The notes under the pieces: generated by a model
Told to the model about the DNA's origin: nothing
The model's input: only the letters and a program-made list of their open reading frames with translations
Databases searched by the model: none
Origin: Bacteroidales bacterium
Lineage (GTDB): Bacteria; Bacteroidota; Bacteroidia; Bacteroidales; Marinilabiliaceae
Direction of reading: 5' to 3'
Assembly (NCBI GenBank): GCA_017539645.1
Contig: JAFYCM010000059.1
Coordinates: 1-34,852, forward strand
Length of the DNA stretch: 34,852 nt
Translations under genes and position numbers: made by a program
Shown here: positions 10,185 through 31,667 of the stretch, in pieces
Layout of the letters: each line of letters begins with the position of its first letter
Position numbering within the stretch: position 1 is the stretch's first letter

Positions 10185-12622
10185 TACTCCACTTCAATCG
10201 TTTCTCCGGCGTTCATATCTACATCATATTCAAACACTTGCTTTAGTTGAGGCCATGCGGCTTTGCCTTTGTCGCTTTGGAGCGGCTCACGTATGTTGGC
10301 AGGGCTCATCAAGTTGTTGGGGCAAGCGCCTTGGGCTTCGCGTAGTCCGTTGCCGTGGAGAGGTACATAACTACGCAAACGAAGCGTGCCTTTGCGACTT
10401 GCGGTGATGGTGGCTTTCTGTATCTGCCCTTTGTCCCACTGCATGCTCACTTCGTAGCCACCGCGTGCCTTCAGTCCGCTTACCTCGCCTTTGCTCCACA
10501 CATCGGGTAGAGCTGGCAGTAGGTGCAGCGCGCCATCGTGACTCTGAAGCAGCATCTCAGCAACGCCTGCCGTATAGCCAAAGTTGCCATCTATTTGAAA
10601 CGGAGGATGGGCGCAGAAGAGGTTGGGGTAGCATCGACCGCTGCGGAATTGGCGGCGCACCTTGTCAGAAGGCAAAAGCGATATGAAGTTGCTGATAATC
10701 TTATATGCATGATTGCCGTCGAGGAGGCGAGCCCACATATTTATCTTCCAACCAATGCTCCAACCCGTAGCCATGTCGCCGCGCTGGAGGAGTGTGGTGC
10801 GAGCAGCGCTGAAGAGCAGTGGATGGCTATATGGCGAAATCTGGTTGCTCGGATAGAGTCCGTAGAGATGCGAAATGTGGCGATGGTCGTCGGTAGGGTC
10901 GTCGAGGTCGTCGAGCCACTCTTGCAGCTGTCCGTACTGGCCAATTTTCATAGGCGGCAACTGAGCCAATGTGTTTTGGAGTCGTTCTATGTATGACTTG
11001 TCGCCACCGAGCAACTTAGTAGCTTCGATGACCGAGGTGAGTGCGTCGAAGACAATCTGGTTGTCCATTGTGCAACCTTGCGTTATGGCAGTGCCAGTGC
11101 CTGCTGGTCCGTGTTCGGGCGAAACAGATGGATTGAGTACAAGGTAGCCACGTTTCTCATCGCGTTGAAGTACAGAAAGATAGAAGTCGGCAGCACCGCG
11201 AAGTACGTCGTAATATTTACGAAGAAAATCGAGGTCGCCAGTGAATAGGTAATGTTGCCAGATATGTTGTGCCGACCATGCACCGCCGTTGGGAAACATG
11301 CCCCATTCTGCACCATCGATAGGACCAGTAACGCGCCAAATATCCGTGTTATGATGAGCTACCCAGCCATCGGCGCCGTAAAGCATCTTGGCTGCGTCTT
11401 TGCCTGTCTGAGCCATGTCGGCCACCATGCCATAAAACGGCTCTTGCAGCTCGCTGAGGTTGGTCACTTCGGCTGGCCAATAGTTCATCTCGGCATTTAT
11501 ATTTATAGTGTACTTACTATCCCACGGAGCATCGGCAAGGTTGTTCCAAATGCCTTGCAAATTGGCAGGTTGAGTGCCTTTTTGCGACGATGATATAAGT
11601 AGATAACGACCATAGTTGAACAGCAACGCAGCGAGCGATGGGTCGCCACCTTCGCCAAATAGGCGTATGCGCTCGTTGGTGGGTAGTTTAGCTTGGTCGG
11701 TAGCAGGCAACGTGAGTTTCACACGGTCGTATTGCGCATGGAACGCTGCCTTGTGAGCCGTAAGCATAGCATCGAACGTCTTGCCCTTAACGCTCTTGAG
11801 CGCCGCAGCCACTCTCTTGTCTGCATTGCCCGACACGTCGTGATAGTTTACAAAGTTGGTGGCAGCGGTCATCACAAGCATTGCTTCGGAAGCGTTGCTG
11901 ATGGTGAGTTTGCCATCGGCAGTGGCTTTTGTTTTGCCGTTTGTACGTACTTCAACCCTACTTTTTGCCTCTATAACGCCCTTTATGCCCTCGTGGTCGA
12001 CAGGCGCACACGTCCACGATAGCGACGCGCCTGAAGCCTTTACGGTAGTTGGCAGCGGACTCTGATGTGACAACGTGAAGTTGAGCGCACCGTTCTTGTC
12101 GGCTGTCAGGCGAACGACAATAACATTATCTACAAGCGAGGCAAACGCCGTGCGAGTGTAAGTGACGCTGTCGACGGTGTAGGTGGTTGTCGACACGGCA
12201 TCGGCGATGTTGAGGTCGCGGCGGTAGTTGGTCGCATTCTCTTGCTTGCCGAAGTCGATGAAGAGCGAGCCGAGAGTGAGGTATTTCATGCCGTGCACGC
12301 CAGTGAAGAACTTCTCGTCGATGATTTTATGAGCCTCGAGGTTATGTCCTTCGGCAATCAGTTTGCGCACATGCGTCAGCACTTCGGCATCGACGGGTTT
12401 TATGTTGTTATGCGGACTGCCCGACCAATAGGTCTCTTCGTTGAGCTGAAGTTCCTCGCAGCCTGTGCGACCGTAAATCATAGCACCCAGACGACTATTG
12501 CCAATGGGTAGCGCGTCGGTCCACTCTTGTGCGGCTTGGTCGTACCACAAGGTATTCTCCTCTTGTGCCACAGCATAGCTACATACGAGCAACGCTGCCG
12601 ATAGTAGAAACTGTTTTGTCAT
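10181..12622 (-). CDS. GH95 enzyme, probable alpha-L-galactosidase rather than fucosidase
   Basis: 813 residues from the ATG at complement 12622, which opens a signal peptide ending at AVAQ. A longer in-frame start at 12727 would only add a translated dispersed repeat (CHPERSEGS), so I reject it. The protein has the GH95 layout: N-terminal beta-sandwich, (alpha/alpha)6 barrel, C-terminal sandwich. The catalytic Asn pair is Asn374/Asn376 in [13 protein letters not shown], and Glu503 in SPEHG is the likely acid. From memory, the residue two before the first Asn is His in L-fucosidases and Thr in an alpha-L-galactosidase acting on complex xylan; here it is Thr372. Removal of terminal L-galactose from glucuronoarabinoxylan fits the neighbouring enzymes. 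The family is firm; the specificity is inferred. Confidence 0.88.
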
Positions 12623-28048: not shown

Positions 28049-28840
28049 ATGACAATGCGAGTAAAAGCTAAAAAACAACTTGGTCAGCACTTTTTGACTG
28101 ACTTGAGCATAGCTCAACGTATAGTCGATGCTATGGACAACCTCGCTTGCCGCGATGTGGTGGAGATTGGTCCGGGTATGGGCGTACTTACGCAGTATTT
28201 ATTGCCTCGAACAGACATCGATTTGCAACTAATTGAGATTGACCACGAGTCGGTGGAATATCTGCAGCAGGAACTCAAAGTAGACCCGAAAATTATTGTG
28301 GAGGGCGACTTCCTGCGCATCAATCTTGCCGAACTTTGTGGCGGTCGTCAGTTTGCGGTTATTGGCAATTTCCCGTACAATATTTCGAGCCAGATTTTCT
28401 TTCATATTCTTGATTATAAGGATCTTGTGCCGTGTGTGGTATGTATGCTTCAGCGCGAAGTGGCTCAGCGTCTTGCGTCGCCTCCGGGAAATAAGGATTA
28501 CGGCATTTTGAGTGTCTTCCTTCAGGCATACTACGATATAGAATACCTATTTACGGTGAACGAGGGTGTGTTCAGTCCACCGCCCAAGGTGAAGAGTGGC
28601 GTCATTCGTCTGCGCCGCAATGGGGTAGAGCACCTCGACTGCGACGAGAAACTTTTCCGCCAGATAGTGAAAGCCACCTTCAATCAGCGCCGTAAGACCA
28701 TACGCAACAGCATACGCGCCGTTCAATTCAATCACGAAGCTTTGGCTGAGCATCCGTATATGGCTCTTCGCCCCGAGCAACTCTCAGTGGCTCAGTTTGT
28801 TGAGCTTACGAAACTCGTGGAAGCTAATAGGGGAAGATGA
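28049..28840 (+). CDS. rsmA: 16S rRNA A1518/A1519 dimethyltransferase RsmA (KsgA)
   Basis: 263 residues. Class I SAM-methyltransferase motifs: KKQLGQHFL at the N-terminus, motif I EIGPGMGVLT, acidic end of strand 2 in LIEIDHESV, GDFLRIN, and the catalytic motif IV GNFPYNIS (family N-[LIF]-P-Y). The FSPPPKVKSGVIRL and FNQRRKTIRNS segments are typical of the KsgA/Dim1 family. It dimethylates two adjacent adenines in helix 45 of 16S rRNA. It starts two bases after the era stop; Met codons at 28049 and 28055 are both possible starts. Confidence 0.96.
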   Translation: MTMRVKAKKQLGQHFLTDLSIAQRIVDAMDNLACRDVVEIGPGMGVLTQYLLPRTDIDLQLIEIDHESVEYLQQELKVDPKIIVEGDFLRINLAELCGGRQFAVIGNFPYNISSQIFFHILDYKDLVPCVVCMLQREVAQRLASPPGNKDYGILSVFLQAYYDIEYLFTVNEGVFSPPPKVKSGVIRLRRNGVEHLDCDEKLFRQIVKATFNQRRKTIRNSIRAVQFNHEALAEHPYMALRPEQLSVAQFVELTKLVEANRGR

Positions 28841-28863
28841 TTTTGAGTTACGAATTACGAATT

Positions 28864-29196
28864 ATGAAACGGGTACTTTTCCTATTACTGATAGCGATGT
28901 TATGCTGCGCCATGAGTAGCGACGATTGCATAACTAAAGACGGATATTTCCGAGGCAAACGTCTATGCGGAAGAGTGAAAATAGTTGATAGCTTCGCCGA
29001 TTTCGATGTGCGTGTAGTTACTTCGCTTGCCGACCTCGATGTCAAAAAAGTTTCCTCTTTTGCCGACGATCCAGGCGAATGGATATTTGTGGATCATTTT
29101 CCAGATTTCACCATTCGTATAGTGGATCATTTCCCTGACTTCACTATTCGCTACGTAAAAAGCTTTCCTGGCGTCAATAGTCCATGCGATAATTAG
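28864..29196 (+). CDS. Small secreted repeat protein, probable 7(1) septoil-knot family
   Basis: 110 residues from the ATG at 28864, just after the rsmA stop; the earlier in-frame Met overlaps rsmA. A signal peptide or lipobox-like stretch (LLLIAMLCC) covers residues 1-18. The mature part consists of about six 11-residue units: VKIVDSFADF, VRVVTSLADL, VKKVSSFADD, WIFVDHFPDF, IRIVDHFPDF and IRYVKSFPGV. From memory, this V-x-[SH]-F-x-D-[FL] pattern is that of the family named '7(1) septoil knot domain', predicted to form a very complex backbone knot. Cys22, Cys35 and Cys108 could form disulfides. The function is unknown. The family match should be treated as probable. Confidence 0.65.
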   Translation: MKRVLFLLLIAMLCCAMSSDDCITKDGYFRGKRLCGRVKIVDSFADFDVRVVTSLADLDVKKVSSFADDPGEWIFVDHFPDFTIRIVDHFPDFTIRYVKSFPGVNSPCDN

Positions 29197-29816: not shown

Positions 29817-29891
29817 ACAAAACAGCAACGACTTCCACTAAAGAAGTAGAAGTCGTTACCGGCGGGGTCCTAAGCCTTGCAGCCAAGAACC
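29817..29891 (-). ncRNA. Array RNA 1, GNRA-hairpin type
   Basis: Promoter octamer at 29896-29903 (TATAATTG). The 5' part folds into an 11-bp hairpin closed by GCAA (GGTTCTTGGCT / GGCTTAGGACC), shared with RNA 2. The 3' part is a 13-bp terminator stem (AACGACTTCTACT with TCTTT loop), then GCTGTTTTG. An upstream motif lies at 29956. Confidence 0.75.
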
Positions 29892-29994
29892 ACTTCAATT
29901 ATACGAATAAATAATGAAATAGTTACAAAATGGAAAAAGAAGTATTCAAGGCAGGAGCCTTGCCGTACCAATGAGACCTTATATGCCATTAGAC

Positions 29995-30100
29995 AAAAAG
30001 AAAAGGAAACCCATTAAACGACTCCGACCCTCAGCAAAAACTGAGGTTATGAAGCGTGGGGCTTCCTTTTGAGGGGTCCTAAGCCTTGCGGCCAAGAACC
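29995..30100 (-). ncRNA. Array RNA 2, GNRA-hairpin type, longest unit
   Basis: Promoter octamer at 30105-30112 with TTTG at 30131-30134. It shares the GCAA-closed 5' hairpin with RNA 1, with C-G replacing U-G at the closing pair. It then has an internal CCTCAG-TTTTTG-CTGAGG hairpin enclosed by GGAAGCCC/GGGTTTCC, followed by TTTTCTTTTTG. It lacks the upstream motif. Confidence 0.75.
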
Positions 30101-30181
30101 ACTGCAATAATACGAATAAATAATAAGTTACAAAACTTGGCTACACTAATAAAATTGACAAAGCTAAACGTGTGGATTGTA

Positions 30182-30281
30182 TAAAAATAAAATAGCCAAG
30201 ATGCTGGCAGGGATTCGAACCCGCGATATGGCGAACTTATGTTCCCCGTGCCTCCAATGGCACCATCAGCACTTGACTACA
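30182..30281 (-). ncRNA. Array RNA 3, tRNA-like
   Basis: Promoter octamer at 30286-30293. The RNA has a tRNA-like outline: acceptor-like GTGCTGA/CCAGCAT, D-arm-like GTGC-loop-GCAC, a central hairpin (GGGGAACATAAGTTCGCC) and a T-loop word GGGTTCGAATCCC. An outer 8-bp helix TAGTCAAG/CTTGGCTA extends the acceptor, and TTTTATTTTT follows. The central arm lacks U33 and the T stem keeps only three pairs, so it is not a normal tRNA. Confidence 0.7.
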
Positions 30282-30361
30282 AATACAATAATACGAATAA
30301 ATAGATACAACACGGAATGCTGTAATTCAAAACAATAGCCTTGTTGAGAATGAGACTATTA

Positions 30362-30440
30362 TAAAAAAGGCAACCTCAAAGGCTGCCAATTAGTACATAG
30401 CGGCTTGAAGTCATCTCGCACTACTGCTATCGAGTACCAT
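30362..30440 (-). ncRNA. Array RNA 4, TTCAAGC-core type
   Basis: Promoter octamer at 30445 is divergent (TATCATTG) and has no upstream motif. Stems GTAC/GTAC and ATAGC/GCTAT enclose the conserved core GCGAGATGACTTCAAGC. Terminator GGCAGCCT-ttg-AGGTTGCC is followed by TTTTTT. Confidence 0.78.
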
Positions 30441-30501
30441 ATTGCAATGATATGAATAAAAAACTAAATAGATAATAGATGCGTAAATACGAGGTTCTTT
30501 A

Positions 30502-30579
30502 TAAAAATAGATAGAGCCGTAGTTTCCTACAGCTCCAATCAGCAACAAGCTTGAAGTTATCGCGCCCCTTCGTGCTGAT
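30502..30579 (-). ncRNA. Array RNA 5, TTCAAGC-core type
   Basis: Promoter octamer at 30584-30591 with TTTG at 30610-30613. A 7-bp stem ATCAGCA/TGCTGAT encloses the core GCGCGATAACTTCAAGC. Terminator GAGCTGTAG-gaaa-CTACGGCTC is followed by TATCTATTTTT. Confidence 0.8.
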
Positions 30580-30657
30580 ATTTCAATAATACGAATAAAT
30601 AATAGATTACAAAATCGAAATAACCCAAGCGTGAGCCTTGCTAATGCCATCGATAAA

Positions 30658-30728
30658 TCAAAAAAGAATAAAGATTTGAATTGCGCATTAGCCCAAACCT
30701 GAGCCTCGACTTACATCCAAACCTCTAT
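30658..30728 (-). ncRNA. Array RNA 6, GAGGTTTG type, weak terminator
   Basis: Promoter octamer at 30733-30740. The 5' end GAAGCATAGAGGTTTG is shared with RNA 8. GCAT/ATGC can close the body. The end is T-rich (TTTATTCTTTTTTG) but the preceding hairpin is poor, so the 3' boundary is uncertain. Confidence 0.6.
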
Positions 30729-30858
30729 GCTTCAATAATACGAATAAATAAATACAAGAAAGAAGTGAAAAGTCTAAATATAAGCCTTGCTATACCAATG
30801 ACGTTGGCAGAGTCTATTCCAAATTTGGGGAATCAGACGTAAAATCTTCCCTATAGAA

Positions 30859-30926
30859 ATAAAAAAGCCGCAAAAGATAACTCTCTTGCGACTAATATTC
30901 TGGCGAAGAATAAATCCCCTCCAGCT
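30859..30926 (-). ncRNA. Array RNA 7, unique body
   Basis: Promoter octamer at 30931-30938. The body starts ATCAGCTGGAGGGG. The terminator is a 10-bp stem (GTCGCAAGAG / CTTTTGCGGC, loop AGTTAT) followed by TTTTTTATTT. Confidence 0.75.
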
Positions 30927-31025
30927 GATGCAATAATACGAATAAAAAATAGATTACAGAATCGGAATAGCCCAAGCGTGAGCCTTGCTATGCCAATGAG
31001 GTAGGCAGAACCTATTTGCAAAACA

Positions 31026-31104
31026 TGAGAAAAGCCACTTTGGTTATAAAACCTCAGTGGCAATTCAAAGGGGGCCGAGTGTTTTTCAACCCGCAAACCT
31101 CCAT
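31026..31104 (-). ncRNA. Array RNA 8, GAGGTTTG type
   Basis: Promoter octamer at 31109-31116. The 5' end GAAGCATGGAGGTTTG matches RNA 6; GCGGGTTGAA resembles a broken T-loop. Terminator GCCACT...AGTGGC with inner GGTT/AACC is followed by TTTTCTC. Confidence 0.75.
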
Positions 31105-31205
31105 GCTTCAATAATACGAATAAATAATAGATTGTAAAATTGAAAGTAACCAAGGTCGATACTTGTTATACCAATGACGTATGTAGCCCAAACAAGATGA
31201 ACCGA

Positions 31206-31270
31206 CAAAAAATAAAGACTTGAGAAACGTCGAAGCAGGCCCCCCCGCCAGCGATTCATACCCAAGCCTT
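31206..31270 (-). ncRNA. Array RNA 9, G-rich body, weak terminator
   Basis: Promoter octamer at 31275-31282. CGAAGGC/GCCTGCTTCG can pair around TTGGGTATGAATCGCTGG and a run of seven G. A short hairpin (GACgTT/AAGTC) precedes TTTATTTTTTG. Confidence 0.62.
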
Positions 31271-31377
31271 CGTGCAATAATACGAATAAATAATTACAAG
31301 AAGGGAAAGAAGAAACCTAAAACATTAGACTAGCTATACCAATGATATATAGACAGCGCCAATCACGAGCATATATA

Positions 31378-31453
31378 CAAAAAAACCGCTGACTGAGAGT
31401 CAACGGTGGAGTGGAACGCCCACGATGCATAAGCAACGGTTGCGCCGTCCCGC
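31378..31453 (-). ncRNA. Array RNA 10, unique body
   Basis: Promoter octamer at 31458-31465. The body contains GCAACCGTTGC. The terminator stem ACCGTTGACT/AGTCAGCGGT (loop CTC) is followed by seven T. Confidence 0.75.
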
Positions 31454-31532
31454 ACTGCAATAATACGAATAAATAGTTATAGATGAAGCCTACACAAGAG
31501 CCTTGCATATGCCAATGATGTGGTAAGGTGCG

Positions 31533-31623
31533 CAAAACGAAGAAGAAGGTTGATTGTTTGTATAATCAACCTTCTCATACAAAGCAGCTTGAATTTATCG
31601 CGCTTATCGCTTTCTAGTATGAT
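31533..31623 (-). ncRNA. Array RNA 11, TTCAAGC-core type, first unit
   Basis: Promoter octamer at 31628-31635; the sequence upstream of it differs from the other units. CATAC/GTATG and AAAGC/GCTTT enclose the core GCGCGATAAATTCAAGC. A 12-bp terminator stem (AGAAGGTTGATT / AATCAACCTTCT) is followed by TCTTCGTTTTG. Confidence 0.78.
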
Positions 31624-31667
31624 GCAGCAATAATACGATTTTACGTATTATTTATCTCTGTGCGAGA

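Follow-up and report, generated by a model that had tools for sequence, protein, structure and literature searches.

Eleven tandem small RNA genes in a Bacteroidales genome as probable orphan immunity RNAs against the toxin domains of phage MuF proteins

In type III toxin-antitoxin systems (ToxIN, CptIN, TenpIN), the RNA antitoxin is encoded as tandem repeats that lie upstream of, and are co-transcribed with, the gene for a ToxN-like endoribonuclease. Orphan immunity arrays in the Bacteroidales, known as acquired interbacterial defence, consist of immunity genes that stand in a row without their toxins and give resistance to many of them. The neutralisation of a protein toxin by a folded RNA is described in a study of type III systems (PMC8860590), and two further studies describe MuF proteins as polymorphic toxins (PMC5576092, PMC11699363). 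In a 2017 survey, 89.4% of 191 MuF toxin genes are followed by a small open reading frame (ORF; PMC5576092). Here we describe an array of eleven small RNA genes in a 34,852-nucleotide stretch of a Bacteroidales bacterium of the Marinilabiliaceae (contig JAFYCM010000059.1 of assembly GCA_017539645.1, hereafter the window). Judged from sequence, the array is probably a set of orphan immunity RNAs directed against the toxin domains of MuF head proteins of Mu-like phages. On this view, the variable domain at the end of MuF would be a toxin, and the adjacent, oppositely oriented gene would encode a short folded RNA able to neutralise it. The host would have retained eleven RNAs of this kind, all with the same promoter type but without the toxins, and may thereby resist toxins that are delivered or made by phages.

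The proposed mechanism resembles that of type III systems in setting a folded RNA against a protein toxin. The differences are that the toxin forms part of a phage head protein, that the RNA gene is a single convergent copy with a promoter of its own, and that orphan RNAs form arrays. The type III genetic layout is absent from the MuF-linked RNAs, and no ToxN-like protein turned up, although no search aimed at ToxN was made. With the MuF polymorphic toxins (PMC5576092; Bxa, PMC11699363) the proposed system shares the toxin family and the notion of a small immunity gene behind the toxin. Those papers deal in their available parts with proteins only, whereas in the Bacteroidales set assembled here the slot behind the toxin mostly holds a convergent RNA gene. 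A MuF domain with a variable C-terminal toxin is present in the partner loci (the MuF locus L140 and the phage BKO1-TP4), and no MuF was found in the window itself. The likeness to the arrays of acquired interbacterial defence lies in the row of toxin-less genes, but those are protein genes against type VI effectors, whereas here they would be RNA genes against phage toxins.

The eleven units occupy positions 29819-31643 of the window on the minus strand, and each combines a near-identical Bacteroidota-type promoter with a short structured RNA, the end of which was placed by eye at a T-run. The promoter pattern TTTATTCGTATTATTG, allowing up to 3 mismatches, matches the window 13 times. Eleven of these matches fall inside the array, all on the minus strand, with 8 exact and one each with 1, 2 and 3 mismatches, and shuffles give a chance expectation of 0.43 matches for the whole window. 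A tandem same-strand array of eleven units, each with a near-identical promoter, as an earlier note on this DNA had claimed, is thus borne out. In the genome from which the window derives, the promoter 17-mer with up to 2 mismatches has 10 matches, every one within the array. The Bacteroidota -7 box is TAnnTTTG, and the array motif, TATTATTG, is a single base off. From promoter to T-run the RNAs measure 68-110 nt, and the units are spaced 139-209 nt apart. Folding places a 3' hairpin ahead of the T-run in most units; the T-runs are short (4 T) in units 1, 4 and 11. The whole promoter region is repeated between units, including in most of them a second box, approximately TCATTGGYATAGCAAGGCT, some 45-55 nt above the promoter, which is not clear in units 1 and 8. 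Dispersed copies of this box lie on the minus strand within 29949-31519, for example at 29949-29974, 30776-30801, 30974-30999, 31152-31177 and 31320-31345.

A CRISPR array has identical short repeats, unique spacers of even length, a leader and cas genes. The array described here instead consists of long units of 139-209 nt, each a promoter followed by an RNA body and terminator (no search for cas genes was made), supporting the earlier view of separately promoted small RNA genes in which the promoter is conserved and the bodies vary, the opposite of CRISPR. The claim that every unit makes a different transcript holds in that the bodies vary, but it needs qualification: units 1, 7 and 8 share a common core (family F1), units 10 and 11 a 5' hairpin (F2a), and units 4 and 6 their first bases. 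Rfam models run over the array gave nothing at thresholds and chance-level matches only below them, and ARAGORN called no tRNA in the window. A few ORFs of 60-100 aa overlap the array and were taken as chance. Integron cassettes were considered and set aside, as no attC-like palindrome was seen in the repeat by eye; no integrase search was made.

The F1 core leads from the array to a protein partner. The core GCGCGATAACTTCAAGCY was matched in 62 genome contigs, 64 times in all, and in 19 viral contigs. Among the genome contigs, going by their titles, 45 of 62 are Bacteroidota and 16 of 62 belong to other taxa; all 16 of the latter matches lie inside ORFs of at least 129 aa without a promoter, as chance would give. 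A promoter box, TAnnTTTG, precedes the core at 13 of the 19 viral matches and at 29 of the 64 genomic ones, and below this promoter a core-bearing hairpin and then a terminator are seen by eye. The 17-nt core is kept across loci with differing flanks, while the closing helix of F1 changes in sequence yet remains paired: at least 6 pairs form in 19 of 36 RNAs, compared with a mean of 6.3 and a maximum of 12 when flanks are swapped (500 swaps; window units included). Convergent to the F1 RNAs lies a recurrent protein end, found in a group of 20 neighbours, which belongs to the phage head protein MuF (PF04233, E 3.5e-7 in L140). The ends of these MuF proteins are CdiA_C-like at E 0.0035-0.011; CdiA_C matches at MuF ends as a whole reach up to E 0.048, and all are below the Pfam cut-off. 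Of 42 F1 RNAs with a promoter, 23 face a convergent domain of the corresponding type, T4, no more than 700 nt away; of 41 lacking a promoter, 1 does. A consistent protein partner, which the earlier note had sought, is thus found as a class, namely the C-terminal toxin domains of phage MuF, with relatives of the RNAs convergent beside them both in phages and in remnants of prophages. At nine chromosomal loci the core sits, by eye, in the anticodon-arm position of a tRNA-like molecule, and ARAGORN calls a tRNA in 4 of the 9. These tRNA-like genes of Bacteroidales chromosomes (L155, L156, L159, L170, L182, L185, L188, L189 and L200) share in six of nine cases the same upstream protein gene. On one viral contig, an RT-3 RNA (RF03068, 153.5 bits; L133, 11712-11860) lies about 600 nt from an F1 RNA and a MuF gene.

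The better-supported part of the case is the presence of convergent RNA genes at MuF toxins, which holds independently of the array. The MuF set draws on two sources: viral contigs, from which three scans retained 10 of 10, 80 of 215 and 57 of 57 loci, and 393 genomes of the order, of which 43 contained a match. The 205 MuF ORFs, less 4 without a stop codon, 7 with under 300 nt behind them and 39 near-duplicates, left 155 non-redundant genes: 144 with an end domain of at least 100 aa, 1 intermediate and 10 with less than 70 aa. At 123 of the 144 genes with an end domain, TAnnTTTG lies in convergent orientation 40-135 nt beyond the stop codon. Controls on the same 144 gave 6 on the gene strand, 17 with the motif backwards and 10 at 220-315 nt, and MuF genes without an end domain have the convergent promoter in 1 of 10 cases. 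A T-run at the MuF stop is found on the RNA strand in 89 of 123 loci and on the gene strand in 3 of 123. Three loci counted among the 123 (L392, L397 and L398) have an apparent sigma-70 promoter with a -10 box that matches TAnnTTTG by chance, and are therefore probably not Bacteroidota. A genome of the same genus as the window, G009, has two MuF genes with convergent promoters at both. When similarity of the MuF N-terminus is controlled for, RNA similarity tracks toxin similarity at a partial rank correlation of 0.11 (7503 pairs), a value that none of 500 permutations reached. Among near-identical N-termini, RNA similarity is 0.52 for the same toxin (14 pairs) versus 0.15 for different toxins (60 pairs), and among distant N-termini it is 0.26 (81 pairs) versus 0.14 (5481 pairs). 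RNA type goes with toxin type, not with the phage backbone.

A protein gene takes the place of the RNA gene in some phages. Two cultured Bacteroides phages, BKO1-TP4 and jmh42, have the same MuF end, which in BKO1-TP4, the one tested, matches the glutamine deamidase family PF15644 (E 9.7e-10) behind a MuF domain (PF04233, E 1.1e-8). In both, the convergent slot contains an annotated small protein gene behind a TAnnTTTG-like promoter. Convergent protein genes fill the slot in L403 and L404, and convergent ORFs were seen by eye in L405 and L281 (PF15644, E 3.9e-18 for L281). At T6 ends (L217, L218), which we take to be JAB-like though Pfam did not confirm this, a co-directional ORF is found in the slot. 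Small ORFs have been proposed as immunity genes for the glutamine deamidase class (PMC11699363). Depending on the toxin class, the slot thus contains either a protein gene (some classes) or an RNA gene (most of the rest). Lying directly behind the toxin, it appears to be an immunity slot, and the product of the gene in it would confer immunity.

As with type III antitoxins, the RNA most likely would bind the toxin domain, here as an imitation of the toxin's own RNA target, and the toxin end domains would be RNA-cutting. The earlier note had offered regulatory RNAs, decoys or guides as roles; decoys come closest, and guide RNAs for an unknown protein are not supported. Hints of mimicry come from unit 9, which is tRNA-like, and from L309, where a T4-like end has a tRNA in its slot. 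Three viral loci (L392, L393 and L397) show by eye a tRNA-like 3' half in the slot, in which ARAGORN calls none; together with their sigma-70-like promoters, they hint at RNA immunity beyond the Bacteroidota. The T2 toxin end is an LPD3 domain (E 4e-18 for L240), and an anticodon-arm-like hairpin, a pattern picked post hoc, is present in 4 of 8 T2 RNAs (0.06 in shuffles). Across all RNAs such hairpins are mildly enriched, at 16 of 123 versus 7.6 expected (maximum 15).

For eight of the eleven RNAs of the array a tie to toxin-linked RNAs can be drawn, more firmly in some cases than in others; for three (units 4, 5 and 11) it cannot. Units 1, 7 and 8 (with T4), 6 and 3 are tied through similarity scores obtained blind against the collected MuF RNAs, with p from 200 shuffles; unit 2 through the T0 RNA of G009; and units 9 and 10 through the adjacency of their relatives to MuF remnants. 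All units are placed by their promoter match and lie on the minus strand. Unit 7 (30503-30599, F1) gives the clearest case, with a score of 84 against the RNA of the L140 MuF toxin (T4), where the best shuffle reached 41 (p 0 in 200 shuffles). Unit 1 (31533-31643; promoter at 31628-31643 with 3 mismatches; F1 core GCGCGATAAATTCAAGC) has a T4-linked RNA as its best match (score 40, p 0.01). Unit 8 (30363-30460, F1, promoter with 2 mismatches) scores 38 against T4-linked RNAs (p 0.02); blastn over genus and family, which was also used for the relatives of units 9 and 10, finds an 86% identical RNA in G011:C9. Unit 6 (30660-30748) matches the RNA of the MuF domain of L316 with a score of 57 versus a best shuffle of 43. 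Unit 3 (31207-31290) weakly matches the RNA of the L297 MuF domain, with a score of 40 that equals the best shuffle (p 0.005). The MuF end domains of L316 and L297 resemble each other. Unit 2 (31379-31473) has GCAACCG..TCGTGGGCG in common with the RNA behind a T0-type MuF domain in G009; this likeness was reached in 0 of 2000 shuffles in a comparison picked post hoc, and the blind p of 0.07 is not significant. Unit 4 (31029-31124), which begins with the same bases as unit 6, and unit 5 (30861-30946) have no toxin-linked match among the collected MuF RNAs (p 0.14 and 0.16).

The remaining units were followed through their relatives, most of which, as single units, carry by eye a Bacteroidota-like promoter of their own. 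Unit 9 (30183-30301) is a tRNA-like RNA on a long stem (F3), with relatives in G011:C51 (85%) and G017:C118 (87%) and 3 pairs changed on both sides among the 3 sequences. The relative in G011:C51 is convergent to a MuF linker fragment (E 2.9e-10) with an end domain of its own, and the stop codon of this fragment lies inside the 3' part of the unit 9-like RNA. Unit 10 (29995-30120) is composed of the hairpin F2a and a module, F2b, for which partial relatives are found in G012:C114 (79%) and G017:C45 (78%); in G017:C45 the F2b relative faces, in convergent orientation, a MuF fragment whose end is L224-like (E 1.1e-6). A match of the whole of unit 10 to L254 (p 0.01) was judged composite and not counted. 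Unit 11 (29819-29911, promoter with 1 mismatch) consists of the F2a hairpin and a terminator, and has a 70% identical relative in G011:C51 (blastn) with compensating changes; several pairs of the F2a hairpin are changed on both sides by eye. Its p of 0.025 against the collected MuF RNAs was not counted as an assignment.

Several observations weigh against immunity RNAs as the explanation of the array. Units 4, 5 and 11 are without a convincing toxin-linked relative, and the ties of units 2, 3, 9 and 10 are post hoc, borderline or indirect: unit 9 has no match among the collected MuF RNAs (p 0.565), nor has the F2b module of unit 10 (p 0.235), and the F3 and F4 models reach at most E 0.12 in MuF loci. 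The motif is missing from the interval in 21 of 144 MuF genes, six of which have a variant box or a box outside the interval (L356, L366, L371, L373, L382 and L309), with ends of other kinds in others. No T4 domain is near 19 of the 42 promoter-bearing F1 RNAs, and under looser criteria the helix test found no difference (39 of 47 versus a mean of 34.8). The identity of the end domains as RNases is weak, the CdiA_C matches being below the cut-off; several end-domain families are without a Pfam match, and searches of the PDB with the T4 domain gave nothing useful. Finally, the RNA is in cis a perfect antisense of any MuF-gpG message. It lies opposite the MuF-gpG intergenic region with its terminator overlapping the MuF 3' end, and is therefore fully complementary to a read-through message. 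The convergent RNAs might accordingly be antisense regulators of the late MuF-gpG message, in the manner of type I systems, and the array a product of prophage decay or a silencer of incoming phage messages. This appears unlikely, as the core kept despite differing flanks and the covarying helix speak for structure, the RNA type goes with the C-terminal domain and not with the shared gpG side, orphan copies (unit 7, for instance) diverge from every individual phage message, and the glutamine deamidase phages make a protein from the slot.

The position of the slot inside a late gene cluster would also suit RNAs that serve another phage need, such as packaging, late control or transposition, with the array as a functionless prophage relic; the second array of the same genome abuts a tape-measure fragment, and the loci in G011 and G017 contain decayed phage genes. 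This explanation is quite improbable, since MuF genes without an end domain mostly lack the promoter and the RNA changes along with the toxin, while eleven units with the promoter kept and little decay, on a chromosome in which no MuF was found, argue for selection. Shared promoters and variable bodies are likewise what guide or regulatory RNAs working with an unknown protein encoded elsewhere might show, but the bodies are recurrent folded families with toxin partners and not free spacers, making this very improbable. Y RNAs were rejected as a candidate. Unit 9 resembles the bacterial Y RNA YrlA in its tRNA-like fold on a long stem, but no match to YrlA (RF02553) was found in the array and no TROVE gene in the same genome, and only 2 of 15 genomes of the genus have one. 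A sub-threshold YrlA match (Rfam E 0.016) is present at L078:1391-1528, near the unit 9 relative of G017:C118. That relative (L092, 66-170) lies a few kb from what we take to be WYL-, TROVE- and RtcB-like genes.

Immunity to polymorphic toxins has so far been described as a task of proteins. If immunity RNAs are indeed the explanation, a large class of phage-borne toxins would be paired with RNA antidotes, which would explain the absence of a visible immunity gene behind these toxins. There would be dozens of toxin-RNA pairs, in which the toxin target might be readable from the antidote, some being tRNA- or anticodon-arm-like, and orphan arrays would constitute a novel form of stored immunity among gut bacteria. 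The broader proposition holds that in the arms race between Bacteroidales and Mu-like phages RNA, not protein, would serve as immunity to RNA-cutting polymorphic toxins, with a folded antidote per toxin, some like parts of tRNA, and host arrays that resist many phage toxins; its chances are about even. The literature search found nothing on RNA immunity to MuF or other polymorphic toxins, with most subscription papers and nearly all preprints beyond its reach.

As for the origin of the array, MuF was not found in the same genome with two profiles (E up to 1e-20 and up to 1e-4), nor was the T4 domain; the other end domains were not searched, and there was no known positive with which to gauge the empty result. 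The closest relative by KsgA, G002 (96% identical), keeps ksgA and the small protein gene but has other genes at the array site, which is therefore variable. Since the promoter regions are near copies and the bodies come from different families, units seem to have been gained by recombination at the promoter repeat. A second short array in the same genome (G000:C39:60-340; L075, L022) contains one full F4 unit and one cut F3-like (unit 9-like) unit; its promoter is related, its upstream repeat differs, and a fragment of a phage tape-measure gene lies beside it. In G011:C9, a T5-like remnant is convergent to an F4 RNA at a distance of 45 nt (E 3.8e-9), and the F4 RNA hardly matches T5-linked RNAs (E 0.12; p 0.23-0.64). 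This locus, which lines up the toxin remnant with its F4 RNA and an F1 RNA, may represent an early stage of an array. Copies of the array were sought in phages and plasmids, with 2 and 3 chance-like matches. The promoter pattern occurs in 34 viral contigs with one match each and no array, and the exact F4, F3 and F2b patterns in none of the viral contigs. Among 61 genomes, 10 have the promoter pattern with 1 mismatch, all except the window's own as single matches. In 393 genomes, the R1 search found the own genome and 3 weak matches, two of which look like ordinary tRNA genes, and the R2 search found the own genome strongly and 12 others weakly (best E 2.4e-7).

Beside the array, on the plus strand at 28837-29196, lies a gene for a small repeat protein (phrog_6462, E 2.1e-26), an association only. 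Such genes stand beside RNA clusters in two genomes: besides the one in the window, two relatives flank the RNA cluster in G011:C9, with phrog_6462 genes at 10302-10631 and 12239-12568 of L073. An island in G011:C51 (L072, 9561-13676) carries F4, F2a and F3 RNAs, and also an AAA ATPase (AriA/HEC-02A-like), an SDH-type protease and a repeated protein of 77-80 aa. A distant unit 9-like RNA (E 2e-5) is located directly behind an apparent tmRNA gene in L096 (G098:C19).

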